Source: Actinomycetes bacterium (lineage in GTDB: Bacteria; Actinomycetota; Acidimicrobiia; Acidimicrobiales; SZUA-35). Taken from it: a stretch of DNA of 64,000 bases. Below, in pieces: positions 5,838 to 30,387 of the stretch; position 1 is the first letter of the stretch, and each line of letters opens with the position of its first letter. The stretch is taken from the NCBI GenBank assembly GCA_024280015.1, contig JAJRQY010000026.1, positions 1 to 64,000 on the forward strand, written 5' to 3'. Made by a program: the position numbers and the translations under genes. The notes below the pieces were generated by a model that did no database searches, was not told where the DNA came from, and saw nothing but the letters and a program-made list of their open reading frames with translations.

Positions 5838-6950
5838 ATGGCAGACCTTACTGACAGGATCGCGCGTCTACATATCGAGCTAGGCGAAGCCGAGGAATAC
5901 CTCCGGATTGCCGAGTTGCGTAGCCGCTTGCCTCAACTTGAGACGGAGATGGGCCGTCCTGATCTCTGGGATGATGCCGACCGCGCCCGCAAGGTCCAGA
6001 CCGAGTTCACCTCGGTCAAGGACGACCTCACCCTTTTTGATCAGCTGGCCGGTTCAGTTGAAGAAGTCGAGATCCTTTGGGAGCTCGGAAAAGAGGAGGG
6101 CGATGAAGCCTCAGTTTCCGAAGCCGAATCCCTGATCAAGAAGCTGGCCCAAGAGTTCACTAGCCTTGAATTACGCGCTCTTTACACCGGCGAATACGAC
6201 GAAGGTGATGCTGTTTGTGAGGTTCACTCTGGCGCTGGTGGAACTGATGCCCAGGACTGGGCAGCCATGCTGTTTGAGATGTATCGTCGCTGGGCCGACA
6301 AGAATGGCTTCGATCTGACGGTAACCGAATGGCAGGACGGGCAAGAAGCCGGTATTTCAACCGTTGGCTTCTCGGTCCAGGGCCGGTATGCCTACGGCAT
6401 GCTCCAGGCTGAGCGCGGGGTCCACCGGCTGGTTCGTATCTCGCCATTTGATTCCCAAGCTCGGCGCCACACTGCCTTCGCCAGTCTCAGTGTCTGGCCC
6501 AATATCGAGGATGCGGCCAAGCAAGTCGATATCGAGGATAAGGAACTGAGGGTTGACGTCTTCCGCTCATCGGGTGCCGGGGGCCAGCATGTCAACACAA
6601 CCGACTCAGCAGTGAGGATCACTCACCTGCCGACGGGAATCGTTGTTTCCTGCCAGAACGAGCGAAGCCAGCACCAGAATAAGGACCGTTGTATGCAGAT
6701 GCTTTCGATTCGACTCGTCGCTCTGGAGAAGCAGAAGCGAGAAGACGAGCTGGCGGCCGCCGCGGGGGAATCCCTGTCCACTGAATGGGGCAGCCAGATC
6801 CGGTCCTATGTTCTTCAGCCCTACCAGCAGGTCAAGGATGAACGATCGGGAATGACCTCCGGCAATCCTGATGGGGTGCTGAACGGCGATGTTGGTCCGT
6901 TCATGGAAGCATGGTTGCGATGGCGTCGAGCAGAAAACATCAGCGGATGA
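5838..6950 (+). CDS. prfB: Peptide chain release factor 2
   Basis: A 370-residue class I release factor that recognises UGA and UAA. Domain 2 carries the RF2-specific SPF tripeptide (RISPFDSQARR), and domain 3 the catalytic GGQ (SSGAGGQHVNTTDSAVRITH) that triggers peptidyl-tRNA hydrolysis. The block VHSGAGGTDAQDWA is also typical. The gene is open from the ATG at 5838 with no internal UGA near codon 25, so it lacks the autoregulatory +1 frameshift seen in E. coli and many other bacteria. RF2 is the factor that would compete with selenocysteine insertion at the UGA in fdhA of this window. It is probably co-transcribed with secA (12-base gap). Confidence 0.98.
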   Translation: MADLTDRIARLHIELGEAEEYLRIAELRSRLPQLETEMGRPDLWDDADRARKVQTEFTSVKDDLTLFDQLAGSVEEVEILWELGKEEGDEASVSEAESLIKKLAQEFTSLELRALYTGEYDEGDAVCEVHSGAGGTDAQDWAAMLFEMYRRWADKNGFDLTVTEWQDGQEAGISTVGFSVQGRYAYGMLQAERGVHRLVRISPFDSQARRHTAFASLSVWPNIEDAAKQVDIEDKELRVDVFRSSGAGGQHVNTTDSAVRITHLPTGIVVSCQNERSQHQNKDRCMQMLSIRLVALEKQKREDELAAAAGESLSTEWGSQIRSYVLQPYQQVKDERSGMTSGNPDGVLNGDVGPFMEAWLRWRRAENISG

Positions 6951-10530: not shown

Positions 10531-10978
10531 TCTACTTGGTCGGCATCACGACGGACACCGATGGTTATTTACGACCAGTGAGCCCTGCCTCGCGATGCGA
10601 TCATGTGGTCCTGTCATGAGGTTCTATGAACTTTCTCAGTGCTCATGCGTCATGATGTTGACGCAGTCCTCCACTGACTGCGTCCCCGGCCTCTTTGACG
10701 GCGGTTCGCGTGGACGTCGGTGTGGGTCGGGTGCCGACGGCGGCTCCCGACCCATCCTGGCTCTTTCAGTCAAACCTTGGGAACTCCCGAGGCCCGCTGG
10801 GTGTGGTTGTGAGCGCTAGCGAGGCTCTGGGGCTGGATGAAGGTATGGCCGCCCACTAGTCATGTCACGATGTTGTGAGCGCGGGCGTGGGTTTGGGTGA
10901 AGGTATGGCTGCCCGCTAGTAATGTCACGATGTTGTGAGCGCTAGCGAGCAACTCGAATTTCGCCGCAGGCGAAAACG
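10531..10978. other. Gene-free stretch before tmRNA, with tandem repeats
   Basis: I see no credible gene. A plus-strand open frame at 10595-10819 has Cys/Gly/Ser-rich composition and no ribosome site. The right half holds an imperfect 60-base tandem repeat (listed separately). A short hairpin TTTCGCC-GCA-GGCGAAA at 10959-10975 lies just beyond the tmRNA 3' end and could help end that minus-strand transcript. Confidence 0.6.
10801..10948. repeat. Imperfect tandem repeat, about 60-66 base period
   Basis: The motif GTTGTGAGCGC recurs at 10806, 10872 and 10932. The segment running from TGAAGGTATGGC through ACTAGT-like and TGTCACGATGTTGTGAGCGC is repeated at 10838 and 10898 with exactly 60 bases between copies and only a few substitutions. 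About two and a half copies are present. It is non-coding and borders the tmRNA gene. Function is unknown. Confidence 0.8.
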
Positions 10979-11370
10979 TGGAGCTGGGGGGAATCGAACC
11001 CCCGTCCGCCAAGGAGTCACCGCACTTGCTACGACCATTCCCGAGACATCGATGTTGTGGTCATCGCGTTGCCGGGTCAGCGGCCTGCTACGAGAGCAAG
11101 CACGACCACATAGTCTTTCCTAAGCGTCAGGGGTCTTTGCCTCCTGTCAATGGTCTCTCCCATTGTCCACCACTGCTTCTGTTGCCGGGTTGCAGTGATC
11201 AGACCCCGCGTGACCTCACGGCTCGCAGTTTTCCTCTGTACTACCTAATAATTAGGCGGCAAGAGCGAAGTCAGCCTTATTGGCGCTTCTATAAAGCCCT
11301 GTTTAACGAGTCTGAGCAACTCGGGTCGCATGTACGACTTCTCGTCTCGACGTCGAAACCGGTCAGCCCC
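10979..11370 (-). ncRNA. ssrA: Transfer-messenger RNA (tmRNA)
   Basis: tmRNA rescues ribosomes stalled on broken mRNAs and tags the peptide for proteolysis. On the minus strand the 5' end reads GGGGCTGACCGGTTTCGAC, the canonical tRNA-like start, and the 3' end reads GGGGGTTCGATTCCCCCC then AGCTCCA. The 5' GGGGCUG pairs with the 3' CAGCUCC to form the acceptor stem. The next templated bases are CG, so the 3' CCA is not fully encoded and must be added. The tag frame ends in LAA as expected. Length is about 392 bases, normal for the one-piece type. smpB, which usually sits nearby in Actinobacteria, is not in this window. Confidence 0.96.
11252..11284 (-). other. tmRNA proteolysis-tag reading frame, ANKADFALAA
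   Basis: Within ssrA the minus strand reads GCC AAT AAG GCT GAC TTC GCT CTT GCC GCC TAA. This gives the tag ANKADFALAA with the ALAA C-terminus recognised by ClpXP-type proteases. The first codon GCC is the likely resume codon. It is followed at once by a second in-frame-independent stop region (TTATTAG). Confidence 0.9.
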
Positions 11371-18438: not shown

Positions 18439-18594
18439 GAGGGCTGAGGCTAGCGACCCATGCTCGGCGTCACGAGGAATTCGTTCGTATCGAGTAGGCC
18501 GCCATCTCCTATCGAGAAGTCTGATGGTGCAGATGACGGGTATTTGGCGGCGAACTGTCAGCTTTTCACTGGTGACGAGTGCGATACTGAGCCC

Positions 18595-20547
18595 ATGCGA
18601 GCCTCAACGAAGAATCGGAACATCCGACACACTCCTAAGCAACGTCTCACTCATCCCTGGGTTCGTGTCGATGGTGAGCTTCGTCCGGCAACCTGGGAGG
18701 AAGCACTTGCCCGCGTCACCGAAGGTTTCGCCAAAACCAAGGCCGAGCTTGGTGGCGAAGGGTTCGCAGTTTTCTCGTGTTCAAAGAGCACCAACGAGAT
18801 GAACTATGCCGCCCAGAAGTTCGCTCGGACGGTGTTGCAGACCAACAACATCGACTCCTGCAACCGAACCTGACACGCTCCTAGCGTCGTCGGTCTGGCG
18901 ACAGTGTTTGGTGCCGGTGGTGGCACCGTCTCCTATGAGGAGATTGAGGAAGTCGATGTCATCCTGCTCTGGGGCTCCAATGCTCGTGAAGCTCATCCCA
19001 TTTTCTTCCATCACCTGATGACAGGTCTGGACAATGGGGCGACAATGTTCGCCGTTGATCCTCGGCGCAGTTCGTCCTCCAAGTTTGCTGATGTTTGGCT
19101 TGGTCTGAACCTTGGGTCCGACGTTGCCATGTCCAATACGGTTGCTCGGGAGATCATCAACCAAGGGTTAACCAATAGGGAGTTCATTGCTCACTCCACC
19201 ACTGGTTTTGAGGCCTACGCCAAATCAGTTGAGCCCTTCACTTTGGAAGTCGGCGAGCAAATTACTGGTGTTCCTGCTTCGGCCATAGCGGAGATGGCTC
19301 GGGCCTACGCCACCGCGGACAAGGCCCAAATCTTGTGGACCCTTGGTATTACCGAACACCACAATGGTGTCGACAATGTCCTGGCCCTTTGCAACCTGTC
19401 CCTGCTGACCGGTCATATTGGACGCTGGGGAAGTGGACTTGTTCCCTTGCGGGGCCAGAACAATGTGCAAGGTGGTGGCGACATGGGAGCGCTGCCAAAC
19501 AAATTCCCCGGTTTCCAAGACATCACCGACCCGGAAGCCCACGCCAAGTTCAGTGAGTTGTACGGAGTGGACTTGCCGGACAAGAACGGTTTGCATCTGA
19601 CTCTCATGTTTGAGGCCATGGAGCGGGGCGAGATCACCTCGGCCTACATCATTGGCGAGAACCCGGCCGATTCTGAGGCTGACATCGAGTTTGCTCGAGC
19701 GACCTTGCGTGGCTTGGACACCTTGGTGGTGCAAGATATCTTCATGACCCGCACCGCCGAACTGGCCGATGTTGTTCTGCCTGCTTCGGTTGGTTGGGCC
19801 GAATCTGATGGCACCGTGACTTCTTCGGAGCGTCGGGTGCAGCGGGTCCGGGCCGCGGTCACTCCGCCAGGGGAGGCCTGGCATGACCAAGACATCATTG
19901 GTGAGTTAGCGCGGCGCATGGGATATGACTGGGGCAAGCCGACATCGGAGGAGCTGTGGGACGAGCTTCGTTCCTTGTCGCCGCTTCACATCGGCATGTC
20001 TTATGAACGGCTGGAGGATGGTGGTCTGCAATGGCCATGCCCCGATCTGGATCATCCCGGCACACCGTTCCTACACGGTTGGCTGTGGGAGGATGATCTT
20101 GGTGGCCATCCGCTCGCCCCGTTTAGCGTGGTCGAGGCGGCGGGACCCAAGGAAGAACTCAGCGCCGAGTTTCCCATACGGTTGACCACCGGTCGGGCCC
20201 TGGATTCGTACAACACGGGTGTTCAGAGCGGTGGCTTTGATTCGCCCATTCGCTACGGCGACGCGCTGGATGTGAACCCGGCCGATGCAGACCGGCTTGG
20301 CATCGCCGACGGCGAGCTGGTGAAGGTGTCTTCGCCTCGCGGCTCGGTCGAGATGGCAATCAGGATCCAGCCCGAGATTCCCGTAGGGCTGACGTTCACC
20401 ACCTTTCACTTTCCCGAGCTGGTGGATATCAATGTCTTGACCAGCGATGCTTGGGACAAGAAGTCGGGAACGGCTGAGTTCAAAGCGGCTGCCATTCGCA
20501 TCGACAAGATCAGCGCGAATGCCGGCGAGGGAGAATCCAATGGCTGA
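18595..20547 (+). CDS. fdhA: Formate dehydrogenase catalytic subunit, selenoprotein lacking its N-terminal [4Fe-4S] domain
   Basis: Molybdopterin enzyme oxidising formate to CO2. The frame is interrupted by one TGA (18871-18873) in the context SCNRT-U-HAP, exactly where formate dehydrogenases carry the active-site Cys/Sec, followed by the conserved His. Read as selenocysteine (residue 93), the gene gives 650 residues and continues with GLATVFGAGGGTVS and VILLWGSNAREAHP. A SECIS hairpin follows the UGA. The C-terminal molybdopterin dinucleotide-binding domain runs from about residue 530. The usual N-terminal Fe4S4 domain is absent: the protein begins at the RLTHPWVRVDGEL segment that normally follows it. 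The missing domain is on the third gene of the operon. Start ATG 18595 has no strong ribosome site. fdhB overlaps the stop by 8 bases. Confidence 0.93.
18871..18873 (+). other. Selenocysteine UGA codon (Sec93 of FdhA)
   Basis: In-frame TGA flanked on both sides by continuous formate dehydrogenase homology (NRT before, HAP after). The preceding and following frames are the same, so no frameshift is involved, and the position equals the catalytic Sec of E. coli FdhF. Confidence 0.92.
18874..18902 (+). promoter_or_regulatory. Bacterial SECIS element
   Basis: Arms GTCGTC (18886-18891) and GGCGAC (18897-18902) form six pairs, one of them G-U, closing on the five-base loop GGTCT. The GGU-CUG codons fall at +7 and +8 after the UGA. 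From my recollection of E. coli fdhF, both the loop and its distance are the same there, which is the site bound by SelB. Confidence 0.9.
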
Positions 20548-22291
20548 CCTTCACCTGACCGAGGATCGAGCTAGCGCGACCGAGGTCGCCGCTATCGACG
20601 CGGCCATTGCCGCCGTTAGCCTTGATCCCGCCGTCGTGCACGAAACCGAACGCCTGGTACGCAGCGGTACCAAACGTAAGAACGATCGCCGTCACGGTCT
20701 GTTGCCTGCCTTACATGCCTTGCAGAAGGAGTCGGGCTGGATCAGCCCCGGCGGTGTCAACCACATTGCCGAGGTGTTGCAAGTTCCGCCGGCCGAGGCT
20801 TTTGGCGTGGCCAGCTTCTACGAGCTCTTCCGGGTTGACGGTGCCCCGGATCAGGAAGATGACGTTGTCCATGTCTGTGTTGATGCTGCTTGCCAGATTG
20901 CCGGAGCCGATCAGGTCATCGCCGACTTGGAAGCTGCAGGCAAGCAGGTGCACCGCAGCCCCTGTCTTGGCCAGTGCGAGCGACCGGTGGCCCAGTTCAT
21001 TCAAGGACGTCGCAAGCCCGACTGGGTGGAAGCAGACGCCGAAGATGAGTTGTGGAACCTTCCCCAGAAGCACGACCCATCGCTCAAACTACTGAAGCGG
21101 GTCGGCCGTATCGACCCCACCAGTCTCGATTCCTATGTCGGAGTCGGCGGCTATGCCGCACTGTCCAAAGCCTTCGCTCTCGGGGCCGATCAGGTCATCG
21201 AAGAGGTACTCGCGTCGGGTCTGATGGGCCGAGGCGGTGCTGCTTTTCCCACGGGAATCAAGTGGCAAGGTGTAGCCGGAGAATCTGGCCAGAAGCATAT
21301 TGTGGTTAACGCTGATGAGTCCGAGCCTGGCACGTTCAAGGATCGTACGATCATGGAGAACGACCCTTTCGCCTTGATCGAAGCGATGACCATCGCCGGT
21401 TTTGCCACCGGCGCCACCAAGGGTTGGATCTATATTCGAGGTGAATACCCGCTAGCCACCAAGCGCTTGGAGGGGGCCATTGTGGCCGCTCGGGAAGCTG
21501 GTTTCTTGGGTGAGGGCATTGCCCGGTCCAGCATCGACTTTGATATCGAGGTTCGGCGAGGAGCGGGTGCGTACATTTGTGGCGAAGAAACTGCTCTGTT
21601 CAATTCGTTGGAAGGCTTTCGCGGCGAACCCCGTCAGAAACCACCCTTCCCGACCACCAACGGCTTGTTTGATCAGCCAACCGTCATCAACAATCCGGAG
21701 ACCCTGCTCAACGTCTTGGACATCGTGCAAGACGGGGGAGCGACCTACGCCTCTACTGGAACCGGCGGTTCAAACGGTCAGAAGCTTTTCTGCCTCTCGG
21801 GTCACGTCAATCGGCCCGGCACCTATGAGGTTGAGTTTGGGCCAACCCTTGGAGATCTGTTGGGGCTGGCCGGTGGTGCAACCGGAGAACTCAAGGCAGT
21901 GCTGCTCGGGGGTGCCGCTGGCTCCTTTATTGGACCGGACATGCTGGAACTTCCCCTCACCATGGAAGCCACTCGTGAGGCTGGCCTATCTCTCGGGTCA
22001 GGTGTGATCATGGCCTTCAACGACAGCACCGACTTCCCCGCAGTTCTCACCCGGTTGGCCGAGTTCTTCAAGAACGAGAGCTGTGGTCAATGTGTTCCGT
22101 GTCGGGTGGGTGCGGTTCGCCAGCACGAGATGTTGGTCCGAACCAGTGCCAATCCAAGCGAGGCCGATAGTCAGCTACTGAACGAGATGGATCAGGTTAT
22201 GAAGGACGCGTCCATTTGCGGTTTGGGTCACACTGCTTCAACCGCGGTGAGATCGGCCATTGCCCTGGGTCTGATTGGAGGTCAGTCATGA
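20540..22291 (+). CDS. fdhB: NADH-dehydrogenase-like NuoE-NuoF fusion subunit of formate dehydrogenase
   Basis: A 583-residue diaphorase subunit that passes electrons from the formate dehydrogenase to NAD+. Residues about 20-160 are a NuoE-type thioredoxin-like domain with four [2Fe-2S] ligands (C113, C118, C142, C146). Residues about 180-583 are NuoF: the FMN/NAD site GRGGAAFPTGIKW, NADESEPGTFKDR and YICGEETALFNSLEG, a SLBB-like segment, and four [4Fe-4S] ligands (C515, C518, C521, C560). Fusions of this kind occur in NAD-dependent formate dehydrogenases and in bidirectional hydrogenases. I chose ATG 20540 with a GAGG site upstream; it overlaps fdhA by 8 bases, and the next gene overlaps it by 4, so translation is coupled. 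Confidence 0.93.
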   Translation: MADLHLTEDRASATEVAAIDAAIAAVSLDPAVVHETERLVRSGTKRKNDRRHGLLPALHALQKESGWISPGGVNHIAEVLQVPPAEAFGVASFYELFRVDGAPDQEDDVVHVCVDAACQIAGADQVIADLEAAGKQVHRSPCLGQCERPVAQFIQGRRKPDWVEADAEDELWNLPQKHDPSLKLLKRVGRIDPTSLDSYVGVGGYAALSKAFALGADQVIEEVLASGLMGRGGAAFPTGIKWQGVAGESGQKHIVVNADESEPGTFKDRTIMENDPFALIEAMTIAGFATGATKGWIYIRGEYPLATKRLEGAIVAAREAGFLGEGIARSSIDFDIEVRRGAGAYICGEETALFNSLEGFRGEPRQKPPFPTTNGLFDQPTVINNPETLLNVLDIVQDGGATYASTGTGGSNGQKLFCLSGHVNRPGTYEVEFGPTLGDLLGLAGGATGELKAVLLGGAAGSFIGPDMLELPLTMEATREAGLSLGSGVIMAFNDSTDFPAVLTRLAEFFKNESCGQCVPCRVGAVRQHEMLVRTSANPSEADSQLLNEMDQVMKDASICGLGHTASTAVRSAIALGLIGGQS

Positions 22292-23151
22292 GTGAGCAGT
22301 CGACTGCGACCATCTCAACGGTCACTGTTTCCATCAACGGCTCCTCAGTGACCGTTCCCGAAGGTGCATCTCTGAAGGATGCCTGTGGAGTGGCCGGAGT
22401 GGAGATACCAACCCTGTGCTGGGCTGCCAACCTGACTCCGGCCAATGCTTGTCGCTTGTGTGTGGTTGAGGTGGAGAATTCTCGGACCTTGGTTCCGTCA
22501 TGCTCACGCCAGGTCGAAGAGGGCATGGTGGTGCAGACCGATTCCGAACGGGTTCACCACAGTCGAAGAATGGTGTTGGAGTTTCTGGGATCGAGCGTTG
22601 ACCTCAGCCAGGCCGATGACCTGGCCCGCTGGTCCAAGGCGTATGGGGCTGACCCCGACCGCTACGGGAATAGTCCAGCCAGGATCGAAGAAGAGATCAA
22701 GATCCAGGACAACCTCTACATCCGCGACTACGACAAGTGTGTGCTCTGCTTCAAGTGCGTGGACGCCTGTGGCGATGACGCCCAGCACACCTTCGCCATC
22801 GCCGTTTCTGGTCGGGGATTCGGGGCCCGAATCAGCACCGAGTTTGATGTTTCGCTACCGGACTCGGCCTGTGTCTACTGCGGCAACTGTGTCGCTGTGT
22901 GCCCCACCAACGCGCTGCAATTCAAGTCGGAGTTTGATCTGCGAGAAGCCGCGGCTTGGAAGCCAGAGGAGCAGACCGTGACCCGGACGGTGTGTTCCTA
23001 TTGCGGTGTTGGCTGCAATCTAGAGATGCATGTTCAGGACAACACCATTGTCAAGGTCACCTCGCCGAATGACCACAGCGTCACCAACGGACACTTGTGC
23101 ATCAAGGGTCGCTTCGGCTGGCAGTACGTCCAACCAGTGGCGACCGAGTGA
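22288..23151 (+). CDS. HoxU/NuoG-like iron-sulfur subunit carrying the formate dehydrogenase Fe4S4 domain
   Basis: A 287-residue electron-wire protein. Order of clusters: an N-terminal [2Fe-2S] ferredoxin domain (C44, C55, C58, C72); two [4Fe-4S] sites (C151/154/157/161 and C195/198/201/205); and a C-terminal molybdopterin-oxidoreductase Fe4S4 domain (C236, C239, C243, C271) with the relay lysine K273. That last domain, ending KGRFGWQYVQ, normally opens the catalytic subunit; here it ends this protein, while FdhA starts just past the same boundary. The usual NuoG His-Cys3 cluster segment has no cysteines (about residues 90-135), so that cluster is lost. ATG 22288 follows GGAGG and overlaps fdhB as ATGA. 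Confidence 0.9.
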   Translation: MSEQSTATISTVTVSINGSSVTVPEGASLKDACGVAGVEIPTLCWAANLTPANACRLCVVEVENSRTLVPSCSRQVEEGMVVQTDSERVHHSRRMVLEFLGSSVDLSQADDLARWSKAYGADPDRYGNSPARIEEEIKIQDNLYIRDYDKCVLCFKCVDACGDDAQHTFAIAVSGRGFGARISTEFDVSLPDSACVYCGNCVAVCPTNALQFKSEFDLREAAAWKPEEQTVTRTVCSYCGVGCNLEMHVQDNTIVKVTSPNDHSVTNGHLCIKGRFGWQYVQPVATE

Positions 23152-26599: not shown

Positions 26600-28618
26600 T
26601 TAGCCCCGGCTGCGACGTCGGCGCTTGGATCGGCCAGATCCCTCCGGTCGGGCCACCGGGTCAGGCGCCGATGGGAAGGCCATCGCCTTGACGAAGAGGT
26701 CCTGGAATGCCGGTTCCATCGCCGTCTCGATTTTCACGACCTTGCGAACGACCTCTTCGATCTCGGCCCGTTCGGACCGAGACAACAGGAGACGAACCGC
26801 ACCGGTGCCAGCCGAGTTGCCGGGGGAGGAAACCGTGCCTGCGCTGGTGGGAATCAGATCGATTGCTGCCGCGGCAAGAGGGTCGATGTGAGCACCAAAG
26901 GCTCCAGCCAAGCGGATGTCATCCACCTGATCGAGATCGGCGTGTTGCATCAGTAGATCGATACCCGCCTTGAGTGCTGCCTTGGCCAGCTGGATGGCCC
27001 GGACGTCGTTCTGGGTTATGCGCAATTCGGCTTGGTTGCCCTCAGCTTCCTCCTCGCTGGCCGCGAGTAGGACGTAGGCGAAGGTGCGGTCATCAGCAAC
27101 GATCCGTCCTGAGGCAACAGCGCCCGGACTGATGTCACTGGCTTGGCGAATGACACCCTTCTTGTCCAGAATTCCGGCAACGGCCATTTCGGCCAAGACC
27201 TCGATCACACCAGAACCACAGATGCCAATGATCCCGCTTTTGGGTGGGGCGAAGTCGGGCTCATTGCTCCAAAGCTCGGATCCGATCACCTTGAAGCGAG
27301 GCTCAAGAGTCTCTGGGTCAATTCGCACTCGTTCGATGGCACCGACCGCGGCCCGAACACCGCACGAGAGCTGAGCTCCTTCAAAGGCTGGTCCGGTTGG
27401 TGAAGAAGCAGCCCACAGGTTTGACTTGTTTCCGAGAACAATCTCGGCATTGGTTCCAACATCGACCAGCAGTTGAATACCTTCGGAATGATGAGGGCGT
27501 TCGGCCACGATGGCCGCAGCAGTATCCGCCCCGACATGACCAGCAATACACGGGGCGATATAGACCGCAGCGTTGGGGCAATCAAGATCCAGTTCGGTGG
27601 CCATGATTTCGACGGCCTCGTCGGTCTCCAAGATGAAGGGCGCGGTGCCGAGCGGGATGGTGTCATAGCCCAGCAGCAAGTGATGCATGACTGGATTGCC
27701 GACCATGCTCATTTCCAGGATCTTGTCCCGAGTAATTGATGCTTCAGCCACAACCTCGCCAATGAGTTCATCCAAGGCTGTTCGGACGGCGGTTGTGAGC
27801 TCGACGTCTCCGCCGGGATTCATCATCACGTAGCTAACCCGGCTCATCAGGTCTTCACCGAAGCGAATCTGTGGATTCATTCGGCCGCTGGAGCCAACGA
27901 CTTCGCCGGTTGCTAGGTCGCAGAGGTGTCCGGCAATGGTGGTTGATCCGATGTCGACGGCCATGCCGTAGGCGGCGTCGACGAAGCCCGGCCAAACCGC
28001 AGCGACAATCAACTGTCCGTCAGCCTGAGTACGAAGAGCCACGGTGAGGCCGGCTGGCTCATTCTCGGACGCGACTTCAGTCGTTGCCCGGCTCGCGGCG
28101 ATGGCCTGAGCCACCTGAGAGTCGAGGGTTCCAGGAACAAGGATTTCTTCGATGTCCCAGTCTCGAGCCAGGGCAACCCGAAGCAGGAGCAGGGGAGGAG
28201 CGACACCCGAAACCTCAACATAGCGAAGCTCGGTAACTGGGTCGATGGTCAGGCCCTCAAGATTGACCTTCTTGCGGATCACCTGCTTGTGAATTTGGCT
28301 CGATTCAGGAATATCGATGACAACATCGGTCTGGACAACAGCCGCGCATCCGAGGCGGTGGCCCTCGAGCAAGGGACGCTTCCCCGCATAGGAGGTTTCG
28401 GTTGATCCCGGGGCGCTGAGAGCAGTGGCATCAATGTCCAGTCCCCACTTGGGAAATGAGCCGACACCAGGAATAACCTGGCAGCGGCCACAAATACCTC
28501 GTCCACCACAAACCGAATCGAGATCAATGCCGAGTTGACGGGCGGCATCAAGCACCGTTGCGCCATCGGCAACCTGGCCTTCACGTCCACTTGGCGTGAA
28601 GATGATTCGATTGCTCAC
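26600..28618 (-). CDS. RamA-like corrinoid reductive activase (2Fe-2S ferredoxin + ASKHA domain, DUF4445)
   Basis: A 672-residue ATP-dependent activator that re-reduces inactive Co(II) corrinoid proteins. The N-terminal ferredoxin domain has [2Fe-2S] ligands C37, C43, C46 and C91. A linker leads to the ASKHA ATPase core, with phosphate-1 loop VDIGSTTIAGHLCDL near residue 218 and VDVGTNAEIVLGN with SSPTGPAFEGAQLSCG further on. This layout is that of RACo/RamA-type proteins (DUF4445 family). It is the last gene of the minus-strand corrinoid operon and overlaps the preceding gene by 4 bases. The C-terminus is a basic tail (GSGRSKRRRRSRG). The natural partner is the corrinoid protein at 29.6-30.4 kb. 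Confidence 0.9.
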   Translation of the reverse strand: MSNRIIFTPSGREGQVADGATVLDAARQLGIDLDSVCGGRGICGRCQVIPGVGSFPKWGLDIDATALSAPGSTETSYAGKRPLLEGHRLGCAAVVQTDVVIDIPESSQIHKQVIRKKVNLEGLTIDPVTELRYVEVSGVAPPLLLLRVALARDWDIEEILVPGTLDSQVAQAIAASRATTEVASENEPAGLTVALRTQADGQLIVAAVWPGFVDAAYGMAVDIGSTTIAGHLCDLATGEVVGSSGRMNPQIRFGEDLMSRVSYVMMNPGGDVELTTAVRTALDELIGEVVAEASITRDKILEMSMVGNPVMHHLLLGYDTIPLGTAPFILETDEAVEIMATELDLDCPNAAVYIAPCIAGHVGADTAAAIVAERPHHSEGIQLLVDVGTNAEIVLGNKSNLWAASSPTGPAFEGAQLSCGVRAAVGAIERVRIDPETLEPRFKVIGSELWSNEPDFAPPKSGIIGICGSGVIEVLAEMAVAGILDKKGVIRQASDISPGAVASGRIVADDRTFAYVLLAASEEEAEGNQAELRITQNDVRAIQLAKAALKAGIDLLMQHADLDQVDDIRLAGAFGAHIDPLAAAAIDLIPTSAGTVSSPGNSAGTGAVRLLLSRSERAEIEEVVRKVVKIETAMEPAFQDLFVKAMAFPSAPDPVARPEGSGRSKRRRRSRG

Positions 28619-28953
28619 GCGGTTTCTGTTTCAACAGGCTCTGGTTGTGGCTCAGCGAAACCACCATTGCGGACCAATTCGTCCAGCCGTTCAAGGGGAA
28701 AAGAAGCATCCAGTTCTTCCGCCAATGCCTCGGCCGCGGTCGCGTGGTCACCCTTGAGGGGCACCTTTTCTTGGCGCCATTCGTTCACGTATGCGCTGGA
28801 GGTCGTGATATCGGCCACCATGGCGGCCCGATCAATGGCTTTCTGAAACCGCGGCTTCAGCAGGATCTGGTGTTTATCTTGACGAGACTTGGCGTTCACC
28901 TGGGCTGGAATGTCTCGCCAATAGATGGTGATGAGTTGTGCGCCTCGGGCCAT
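28615..28953 (-). CDS. 'Virulence factor' (PF13769-type) small protein of the corrinoid cluster
   Basis: A 112-residue cytosolic protein. The name is historical; no virulence role is implied. It shows the family opening LITIYWRDIPAQVNAKSRQD and the block VNEWRQEKVPLKGDHATAAE. In other bacteria members sit beside corrinoid-dependent methyltransferases, DUF1638 proteins and RamA-like activases, as here. The role is unknown, but the consistent setting suggests assembly, activation or a regulatory part of methyl transfer. It starts 2 bases after the DUF1638 gene and overlaps the activase gene as ATGA. Confidence 0.82.
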   Translation of the reverse strand: MARGAQLITIYWRDIPAQVNAKSRQDKHQILLKPRFQKAIDRAAMVADITTSSAYVNEWRQEKVPLKGDHATAAEALAEELDASFPLERLDELVRNGGFAEPQPEPVETETA

Positions 28954-28955
28954 GG

Positions 28956-29669
28956 CTACTCGCTATCGGTTTGATGTGAGGTGGATCCGCCTTGGCGGGC
29001 GGTGGGTGCAGTGATGCTAACGGTGACCGGGTGCCCCAACGCGTCCTGGAGGGGTGACAATCCCGTGTGGCGGCGATCAAAGGCCAGTCCCAGGCGCTTG
29101 GCCGCATCGGCCGCCATGGCCGTCAGCTCCGCAAGCTGCTCGGAGTTATTGGTTTGTGACAGGTAGACCACTCGTTTGTAGTTGCCGAAGTACATGTCCA
29201 ACAGTTCGGGATGCGTGTGGATCTTGAGCGGTCTCCAGATGAGCTGATCAAAATGTCGAGCCAGAAAGTCAGTCAGGAAGAATGTGCCGAGTTCTTCGTC
29301 ATGCAAGGCACGGAAGGCTTCAGCGCCAACGAAGAAGGAATAACAATGGTCTCCGGGCAACCGCTCAATTGGGATAGCAAGTTCGGCCTGGAGTCGCTCC
29401 ATGAGTGAATCCAACAAACCGCCGGTCCCACAATCGCCATAGCCAAGGATGATCTTGTCCAGTGCTGTCCCTTGCTGCGCTGCGCCTGCAACCACCGCTC
29501 GAACTTGTTGTTCTATTGCCTCTGGAATCTTCGCTGGTCGGCTGTGCAGCGGTGCGGGCAGGTAGGAGGCATTGACTCCGACTGCTCGCAGTTCGCGAAC
29601 AAGCGCGCCGCATGCAATGACTGCGGTTGATGAGTCGAAGGGTGCTTCAGCTGGCAGCGAGTGCGGCAC
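28956..29669 (-). CDS. DUF1638 family protein of the corrinoid cluster
   Basis: A protein of about 237 residues, family of unknown function. Recognised by the start TAVIACGALVRELRAV, the glycine-rich LGYGDCGTGGLLDSLM, and the Cys-containing GDHCYSFFVG. Three well-spaced cysteines (in IACGAL, YGDCGTG and GDHCYSF) could bind a metal or cluster, as suggested for the family. The frame is open far upstream inside the corrinoid gene, so the start must be chosen: GTG 29669 overlaps the upstream gene by 23 bases and keeps the whole domain. The constant company of corrinoid proteins suggests a role in methyl-transfer chemistry or cobalamin handling. Confidence 0.82.
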   Translation of the reverse strand: MPHSLPAEAPFDSSTAVIACGALVRELRAVGVNASYLPAPLHSRPAKIPEAIEQQVRAVVAGAAQQGTALDKIILGYGDCGTGGLLDSLMERLQAELAIPIERLPGDHCYSFFVGAEAFRALHDEELGTFFLTDFLARHFDQLIWRPLKIHTHPELLDMYFGNYKRVVYLSQTNNSEQLAELTAMAADAAKRLGLAFDRRHTGLSPLQDALGHPVTVSITAPTARQGGSTSHQTDSE

Positions 29670-30387
29670 GTCGTTCGTCAACCAGAGTCTTTGCTGTCTC
29701 CGCAGCAATGGCAGCATCGGAACAGTACGCATCGGCACCAACGGCGAGACTGAATTCCTCGTTGAGGGGAGCACCGCCAACGATCACGATGTAATCGTCT
29801 CGTTTGCCCCGTTCGATCAGGGTGTCGATGACAACCTTCATATAGGGCATGGTGGTGGTCAGCAGGGCGGACATGCCGAGAATGTCGGCGTTGTGTTCAT
29901 CCAAGGCGTCGAGGAAGCTGTCAACATCGGTATTAATACCGAGGTCAACAACCTCAAATCCGGCGCCTTCCAACATCATGCCGACCAGGTTCTTGCCAAT
30001 GTCATGGATATCGCCCTTGACGGTGCCAATGACAACCCTGCCAACGGCCTCGACCCCGGTCTCGGCCAACAATGGCCGCAAGATCTCCATACCGACCTTC
30101 ATGGCGTTGGCTGCGAGCAGGACTTCGGGAACGAACAAGATGCCGTCACGGAAGTCGTCGCCAACCACCTTCATGCCAGCAACGAGCGCCTTGTTGAGGG
30201 TCTCCTCTGCGGACCAGCCGCGTCCTAGAAGGATCTGGGTACCTTCTCCGATTTCTTCCCCCATGCCGTCATAGAGATCGTCATGCATTTGGGCCGTGAG
30301 CTCAGCATCATCAAGAGTTGACAGATCGAGATCGTCGTTGAACTCGTCCTCGGAATTGTCGCTGGATGGGATGGAGGCGTCAGACAT
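29647..30387 (-). CDS. Corrinoid (B12-binding) methyl-carrier protein, MttC/MtbC-like
   Basis: A 246-residue protein that carries a methyl group on cobalt between two methyltransferases. A four-helix cap domain (about residues 30-110, EETLNKALVAGMKVVGDDFR) precedes a Rossmann-type cobalamin domain with the base-off motif DIHDIGKNL, where H128 ligates cobalt from below. The second loop is GMSALLTTTMPYM and the third IVGGAPLNEEF. The N-terminal 30 residues are acidic and disordered, longer than in most relatives. It is the first gene of a four-gene minus-strand operon whose other members are accessory. No MttB/MtgB-type methyltransferase lies beside it, so the methyl donor is unknown. Confidence 0.93.
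   Translation of the reverse strand: MSDASIPSSDNSEDEFNDDLDLSTLDDAELTAQMHDDLYDGMGEEIGEGTQILLGRGWSAEETLNKALVAGMKVVGDDFRDGILFVPEVLLAANAMKVGMEILRPLLAETGVEAVGRVVIGTVKGDIHDIGKNLVGMMLEGAGFEVVDLGINTDVDSFLDALDEHNADILGMSALLTTTMPYMKVVIDTLIERGKRDDYIVIVGGAPLNEEFSLAVGADAYCSDAAIAAETAKTLVDERRAALAAS

Follow-up and report, generated by a model that had tools for sequence, protein, structure and literature searches.

Does the in-frame UGA within an actinobacterial formate dehydrogenase gene encode selenocysteine (Sec), and what kind of enzyme does the surrounding locus specify? We addressed this for a 64,000-nt stretch of DNA from an Acidimicrobiales assembly (GCA_024280015.1, contig JAJRQY010000026.1, positions 1 to 64,000), referred to below as the window. 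On its plus strand, positions 18595..20547 form a frame of 650 codons for the catalytic part of a formate dehydrogenase (FDH) alpha subunit, here called alphaC, with a single internal UGA at codon 93 (18871..18873) in the motif SCNRT-U-HAPSVVGL. Ordinary gene calling with Table 11 breaks this gene into two open reading frames, 18460-18873 (137 aa) and 18904-20547 (547 aa), just as a preliminary description of the DNA had anticipated in stating that a gene caller would split or shorten it. That description had also placed the UGA at residue 93, at the active-site position and with uninterrupted homology on either side. The coordinates proved correct, and a 16-row alignment of relatives bore out the homology: homologous sites place the codon at the position of the Mo/W ligand, the motif is invariant save for its second Val, and both His94 and the Arg of a PLRGQNN motif—residues we take to be typical of FDH active sites—are invariant as well.

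The UGA is not a peculiarity of this assembly. All 137 distinct homologous sites read that carry SCNRT-stop-HAPS have TGA, and at least one TGA was present in 140 of 140 matches of ≥57% identity, from 138 genomes, among the matches listed; the position of the TGA was itself read in the fetched loci only, its presence being scored in the other listed matches. Ilumatobacter nonamiensis (L084), the one titled isolate, has the same TGA, as do many metagenome-assembled genomes. Some relatives had seemed to contain extra in-frame stops (‘1 TGA, 1 TAG’ or ‘2 TGA’), and re-reading seven such loci dismissed these: four on the plus strand (L047, L048, L180 and L185) have U93 and other stops only at or beyond the normal gene end, and for three on the minus strand (L041, L050 and L178) the stops fall at query position 93 and, in two cases, also at 646 and 647. 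A candidate UAA/UAG-recoded site (L200) was rejected, the codon there being TGC for Cys.

Formate dehydrogenases with Sec and a selenocysteine insertion sequence (SECIS) are a classical kind. Directly 3′ of the UGA, positions 18886..18902 can fold into a six-pair hairpin (18886-18891 with 18897-18902; five Watson-Crick pairs and one G-U) that holds the loop GGUCU at codons +7/+8, in agreement with the earlier account of this element. The isolated 17-mer reached −6.8 kcal/mol (z −2.57; 4 of 200 shuffles were equally good), and the minimum-energy fold of 51 nt from the single gene was predicted to be another structure. The likeness to E. coli, initially described as ‘the same place’ as in fdhF, held for the loop but not for the stem: in E. 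coli K-12 fdhF (NC_000913.3, U140; formate dehydrogenase H), with Sec at the homologous site, GGTCT lies at the identical offset (nt 22-26 from the U of the UGA), whereas the stem pairs in another register. Since another 51-nt fold wins and the stem registers differ, thermodynamics and resemblance to E. coli would not by themselves suffice to call a SECIS.

We examined conservation only across sites that could be compared like with like: non-identical 150-nt segments spanning the active-site codon that had the protein motif, the downstream Gly-Leu and 40 further codons free of stops. The fetched loci yielded 151 such sites, 145 with TGA and six with a Cys codon, the 145 being related by descent rather than independent events. 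Codons +7/+8 were GGT CTG in every one of the 145 TGA sites, while GGT at +7 occurred in none of the six Cys sites (GGA, GGG or GGC instead). Five further loci, read by alignment, followed suit (three with TGA, all GGT CTG; two with Cys, both GGG), bringing the totals to 148 of 148 UGA homologs and 0 of 8 cysteine homologs with GGU-CUG. Of 570 other Gly codons lying no more than 30 codons from the UGA, only 85 were GGT. The hairpin had its full six pairs at 143 of the 145 distinct sites with UGA but at none of the six with Cys; a chance hairpin is excluded because the pairs are conserved at the former and missing from the latter. One pair (18-30), formed by the third bases of codons +5 and +9, was C-G in 132 sites, G-C in 13 and mismatched in none, although both positions are synonymous for the usual residues and thus free of amino-acid constraint. 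On a 56-row tree, the pair was known for 45 Sec rows, among which it flipped between C-G and G-C at least five times. An RNA signal would be expected to produce both this contrast with the Cys homologs and the recurrent double changes, and we therefore conclude from these comparisons that the UGA at 18871-18873 is a selenocysteine codon.

The host encodes what such a codon needs. Within the assembly of the window (4.80 Mb, 175 contigs, 96.6% complete), a tRNA-Sec gene (selC) lies at positions 113316-113407 of contig C15, scoring 66.4 bits against an Rfam gathering threshold of 47, with the anticodon TCA according to ARAGORN. The same contig carries selA (from 152128) and, directly after it, selB (from 153348), and selD lies at C58:4240-5259 (L072); all three proteins score over their family cut-offs. 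A prediction that the organism should possess selA, selB, selC and selD was thereby borne out. SelD has an in-frame UGA of its own in the motif HGAG-U-GCK (residue 24 of the stretch translated) and is therefore probably itself a selenoprotein. FDHs also need FdhD, which is likely present, its match falling slightly under the cut-off (135.7 versus 140.9 bits). A few kilobases 3′ of selC (L009:11068-16975, on C15), we noted genes for a Mo oxidoreductase, a 4Fe-4S protein and two Sulf_transp-domain proteins, one of them also with a cytochrome b561 domain; these genes are possibly sulfur or selenium related. A second copy of the Sec FDH was not found in the assembly, which contains two distant Mo enzymes of the family. 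Plasmid records gave 452 matches, all below 60% identity and hence no close copy, 23 of 25 among the matches listed being annotated as fdhF.

Inspecting the domains revealed alphaC to be only part of a large subunit. It contains the Molybdopterin (PF00384) and Molydop_binding (PF01568) domains but no Fe4S4 domain, and its match to TIGR01591 spans positions 51-672 and scores 630.6 bits, short of the curated cut-off of 666.25. The shortfall may be explained by the ~50 positions that alphaC lacks. The missing front part (alphaN, 287 aa) is encoded at 22288..23151 on the plus strand, the second gene downstream of alphaC: it comprises 2Fe-2S (PF13510), 4Fe-4S (PF12838) and Molybdop_Fe4S4 (PF04879) domains, the last being the one that normally precedes the catalytic domain, and TIGR01591 positions 1-49 match at its end with 57.2 bits. 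Each half thus scores below 666.25, whereas their sum, by simple arithmetic, exceeds it. Compared with the solved FdsA (6tg9_A, 958 aa), alphaC matches residues 307-932 and the best stretch of alphaN matches 162-303. Between the two lies a gene (20540..22291, plus strand; EF) for a 583-aa fusion of NuoE- and NuoF-type parts, a putative FMN/NAD diaphorase subunit. The EF start and the alphaC stop share an overlap of 8 nt, the alphaN start and the EF stop one of 4 nt. The locus therefore shares with FdsABG-type NAD-dependent FDHs the NuoE-/NuoF-like diaphorase parts accompanying alpha, but not the single alpha whose N-terminal iron-sulfur domains are fused to the catalytic domain. The initial label of a Sec FDH was right in that the gene with the UGA is an FDH catalytic gene; it did not hold for a whole alpha subunit, TIGR01591 positions 1-49 being encoded elsewhere.

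The order alphaC-EF-alphaN differs from that of three canonical loci of the same class (L066-L068), which read EF followed by a fused alphaN-alphaC. Among 17 split-type class regions examined with wide flanks, 16 showed it; the exception, L056 (G315, 69% complete), has alphaC and EF, but no alphaN was found nearby, not even when the threshold was relaxed. It was also present in all eight split-type regions examined elsewhere in the phylum, four of which have Cys in place of Sec. Among the 80 nearest titled loci, whose labels, mostly Acidimicrobiia, Acidimicrobiales or Acidimicrobiaceae, are our ground for calling the group Acidimicrobiia, the arrangement was complete in 71, including one (L138) in which 2.3 kb separate alphaC from EF; eight of the nine incomplete loci are cut short by the end of the contig, and in the ninth (L119) alphaN was not found in the ~450 bases left past EF. 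An in-frame C..C...C motif upstream was lacking in 141 of 156 alphaC loci. We placed 56 of the 156 on a tree, namely all 15 with the motif and 41 without it, the latter in part a random draw. A single branch (SH-aLRT 100, from a quick, unrooted search run without bootstrap) set all 41 split genes apart from the rest, and at least five changes between Sec and Cys occurred on the tree. The large FDH subunit is very probably encoded as two separate, re-ordered gene pieces. Judged from these sequences, the split would most simply have arisen once, by fission at a domain border and re-ordering, and then have been kept, Cys relatives included.

How else might the locus be read? Were the UGA a genuine stop or a sequencing error, the region would hold a pseudogene or two separate genes, as the two open reading frames from ordinary gene calling would have it; moreover, the last codon of alphaC is itself TGA, so UGA does work as a stop in the source genome. 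Yet an error or a decayed gene would not leave at least one TGA in each of the 140 listed matches noted above, nor the same TGA in the isolate and the many metagenome-assembled genomes, nor would a plain stop be tracked by a SECIS signal that vanishes with Cys codons, in a host whose Sec machinery is complete. Given the joint conservation of UGA and SECIS, we reject a pseudogene or sequencing error, and we regard this whole line of explanation as having a negligible chance of being correct. Scarcely more credible is the proposal that GGU-CUG at +7/+8 reflects mere codon choice for a conserved Gly-Leu pair in the absence of a functional SECIS. Gly100 and Leu101 are indeed invariant in the protein alignment, but the eight Cys homologs read retain the same two residues with GGA, GGG or GGC, nearby Gly codons of the same genes seldom use GGT, and codon choice does not account for C-G/G-C covariation between two synonymous positions.

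With the UGA taken as a Sec codon, the identity of the enzyme could still be questioned: the locus might encode another Mo enzyme of the same fold, for instance an assimilatory nitrate reductase, or else a reductase of CO2 that works with a different partner. The sub-threshold TIGR01591 score leaves room for this, and the best PDB sequence match of alphaC is FdhF of a hydrogen-dependent CO2 reductase. Against it stand the far poorer match to the next family, NasC (407.6 bits versus a cut-off of 1100), the adjoining gene with NuoE- and NuoF-type domains, the Sec at the ligand position and, in the accessible part of PMC7176365, selenium-dependent formate removal by an Actinomycetospora strain. 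We consider such an alternative enzyme very improbable, if somewhat less so than the two readings above.

A Sec-containing FDH thus remains our interpretation: on the directly observed sequences, domains, SECIS conservation and covariation, Sec machinery and conserved gene order, the genes at 18595-23151 are very likely to encode a cytoplasmic NAD+-linked Mo (or W) Sec FDH with a split alpha subunit. From these data we infer how Sec would be inserted in the organism, how the subunits would assemble, and formate, NAD+ and Mo or W as the probable substrate, acceptor and metal. SelA and SelD would make Sec on tRNA-Sec (selC), and SelB would recognise the hairpin 3′ of the UGA, so that Sec is inserted at residue 93. 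There, it would serve as a ligand of the active-site metal, with alphaC binding the bis-MGD cofactor together with Sec, and alphaN would supply the metal-proximal [4Fe-4S] domain and the remainder of the iron-sulfur wire. Electrons would accordingly pass from formate to Mo/Sec on alphaC, on to the [4Fe-4S] clusters of alphaN, then to the FMN of EF and finally to NAD+. The accessible part of PMC7171172 offers Rhodobacter FdsABG as a model for formate oxidation at Mo-bis-MGD and for the electron path; by analogy, the [4Fe-4S] cluster matching A1 of that enzyme would sit on alphaN as the first electron acceptor.

Overlapping genes raise the matter of whether translation of the three subunits is coupled. 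We examined 95 loci, that of the window among them, in which all three genes are present, choosing the nearest possible start in each case, which biases the outcome towards overlap. By this measure, the EF start overlapped the alphaC stop in 61 of 95 loci and lay within 20 nt in 19 more, being further away or undefined in the other 15; the alphaN start overlapped the EF stop in 85 and lay within 20 nt in nine more. These overlaps fit translational coupling of alphaC, EF and alphaN, which, with the UGA in the first gene, would permit selenium control of the whole set. One may speculate that the permuted order makes a selenium gate of the whole enzyme, fission and permutation having turned the catalytic gene into a selenium-sensing regulatory leader: ribosomes stopping at the UGA would miss the EF and alphaN starts, so that all subunits would be made only with selenocysteine. 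We hold this to be rather unlikely. The 15 loci with a distant or undefined EF start speak against it, as do the four Cys operons, which keep the same order, showing that the gene order persisted without a need for Sec.

We also determined how widespread the system is, using samples of 395 genomes from the class of the window and 396 from its phylum. At a threshold of 1e-60, 216 of the 395 class genomes matched alphaC, and at least 138 carried the gene with the UGA (140 rows of ≥57% identity). SelA was found in 259 (E ≤ 1e-40) and tRNA-Sec in 247 (E ≤ 1e-9). The supposition that Sec is uncommon in Acidimicrobiia-like actinobacteria, voiced in the preliminary description, therefore fails for the sampled class. 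Of the 138 genomes with alphaC, 125 have selA (Fisher p 6.5e-16, a statistic that ignores kinship); seven of the remaining 13 have tRNA-Sec, and the last six are 60-77% complete. The same gene was found outside the class in the phylum sample, where four genomes of 6-10 Mb from one genus have Cys at the site. Within the class, two genomes (G226 and G121; L067 and L068) possess a separate, fused FDH in canonical order, with a UGA and GGT CTG at +7/+8, while a fused relative of theirs (L066) has Cys and GGG. Many small genomes of the class (0.6-1.1 Mb), belonging to one genus (g89, family f34), carry selA and/or tRNA-Sec and are missing from the 216 genomes with an FDH match; presumably, they retain the machinery for a different selenoprotein.

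Several known systems bear comparison. E. coli FdhF has its own Fe4S4 domain and is part of formate hydrogenlyase rather than being NAD-linked. Rhodobacter capsulatus FdsABGD (6tg9; accessible part of PMC7171172) shares the domains and, presumably, the electron path, but has a single 958-aa FdsA with Cys386 and the operon fdsGBACD, whereas here there are two polypeptides, Sec, the order alphaC-EF-alphaN and a NuoE/NuoF fusion. Other actinobacteria, too, have been documented to use Sec, FDH being one of their selenoproteins (PMC5029168, as far as accessible). The closest counterpart may be FDH3 of Actinomycetospora chiangmaiensis DSM 45062 (FdhA3/FdhB3/FdhC3), described in the accessible text of PMC7176365 as cytoplasmic and NAD+-dependent, with Sec predicted and all three subunits detected in the proteome. 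At 640, 614 and 316 aa, its subunits resemble the 650, 583 and 287 aa found here—a likeness of lengths and names, not of alignment—and on the strength of these sizes an enzyme of this type was probably produced and detected there before. In that same text, FdhA3 and FdhC3 are not called a split alpha subunit, as alphaC and alphaN are here, and the strain needs selenite to remove formate; since it has two further Sec FDHs, this dependence is not specific to FDH3. In Geodermatophilaceae, also actinobacterial, Sec FDHs with recoding to UAG have been reported (Mukai et al. 2016, as cited in the accessible part of PMC5330540), in contrast to the UGA and the tRNA-Sec anticodon UCA of this genome. 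A sponge-symbiont study reported SelA/SelB in the majority of symbiont bins (PMC5649159, accessible part), and one of our loci (L140) is contig MPNQ01000054.1 of Sva0996 bin134 from that study. Our search of the literature on actinobacterial selenoproteins and FDHs, confined to main texts, largely open-access, gave no description of the split alpha layout among the papers listed, which is weak evidence of its absence.

Elsewhere in the window, the minus strand at 26600-30387 encodes an MtgC/MtbC-like corrinoid protein, a RACo-type reductive activase, and DUF1638 and PF13769 proteins, likely a cluster for corrinoid-dependent methyl transfer, from which one-carbon units could flow towards formate. 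We did not count the corrinoid/RACo genes as part of the FDH system because, at the threshold used, only the nearest of the 80 titled loci (L075) retains any of them nearby. The window further contains a tmRNA gene (10978-11370, minus strand; tag peptide ANKADFALAA) and, at 5838-6950, a peptide chain release factor gene with PCRF and RF-1 domains in one uninterrupted frame.

As a selenoprotein, this enzyme is ordinary; it is the conserved split and permuted layout that is modestly new. A large, poorly cultured actinobacterial group, to judge from the prevalence of selA, probably uses selenium for formate oxidation, with an enzyme whose catalytic gene standard gene calling truncates. Owing to the split, the cluster that first takes electrons from Mo should lie on another polypeptide than the Mo/Sec site. 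Nature would here supply an FDH in two pieces, of use to both basic study and engineering, and a means of testing whether selenium supply gates synthesis of a whole complex.
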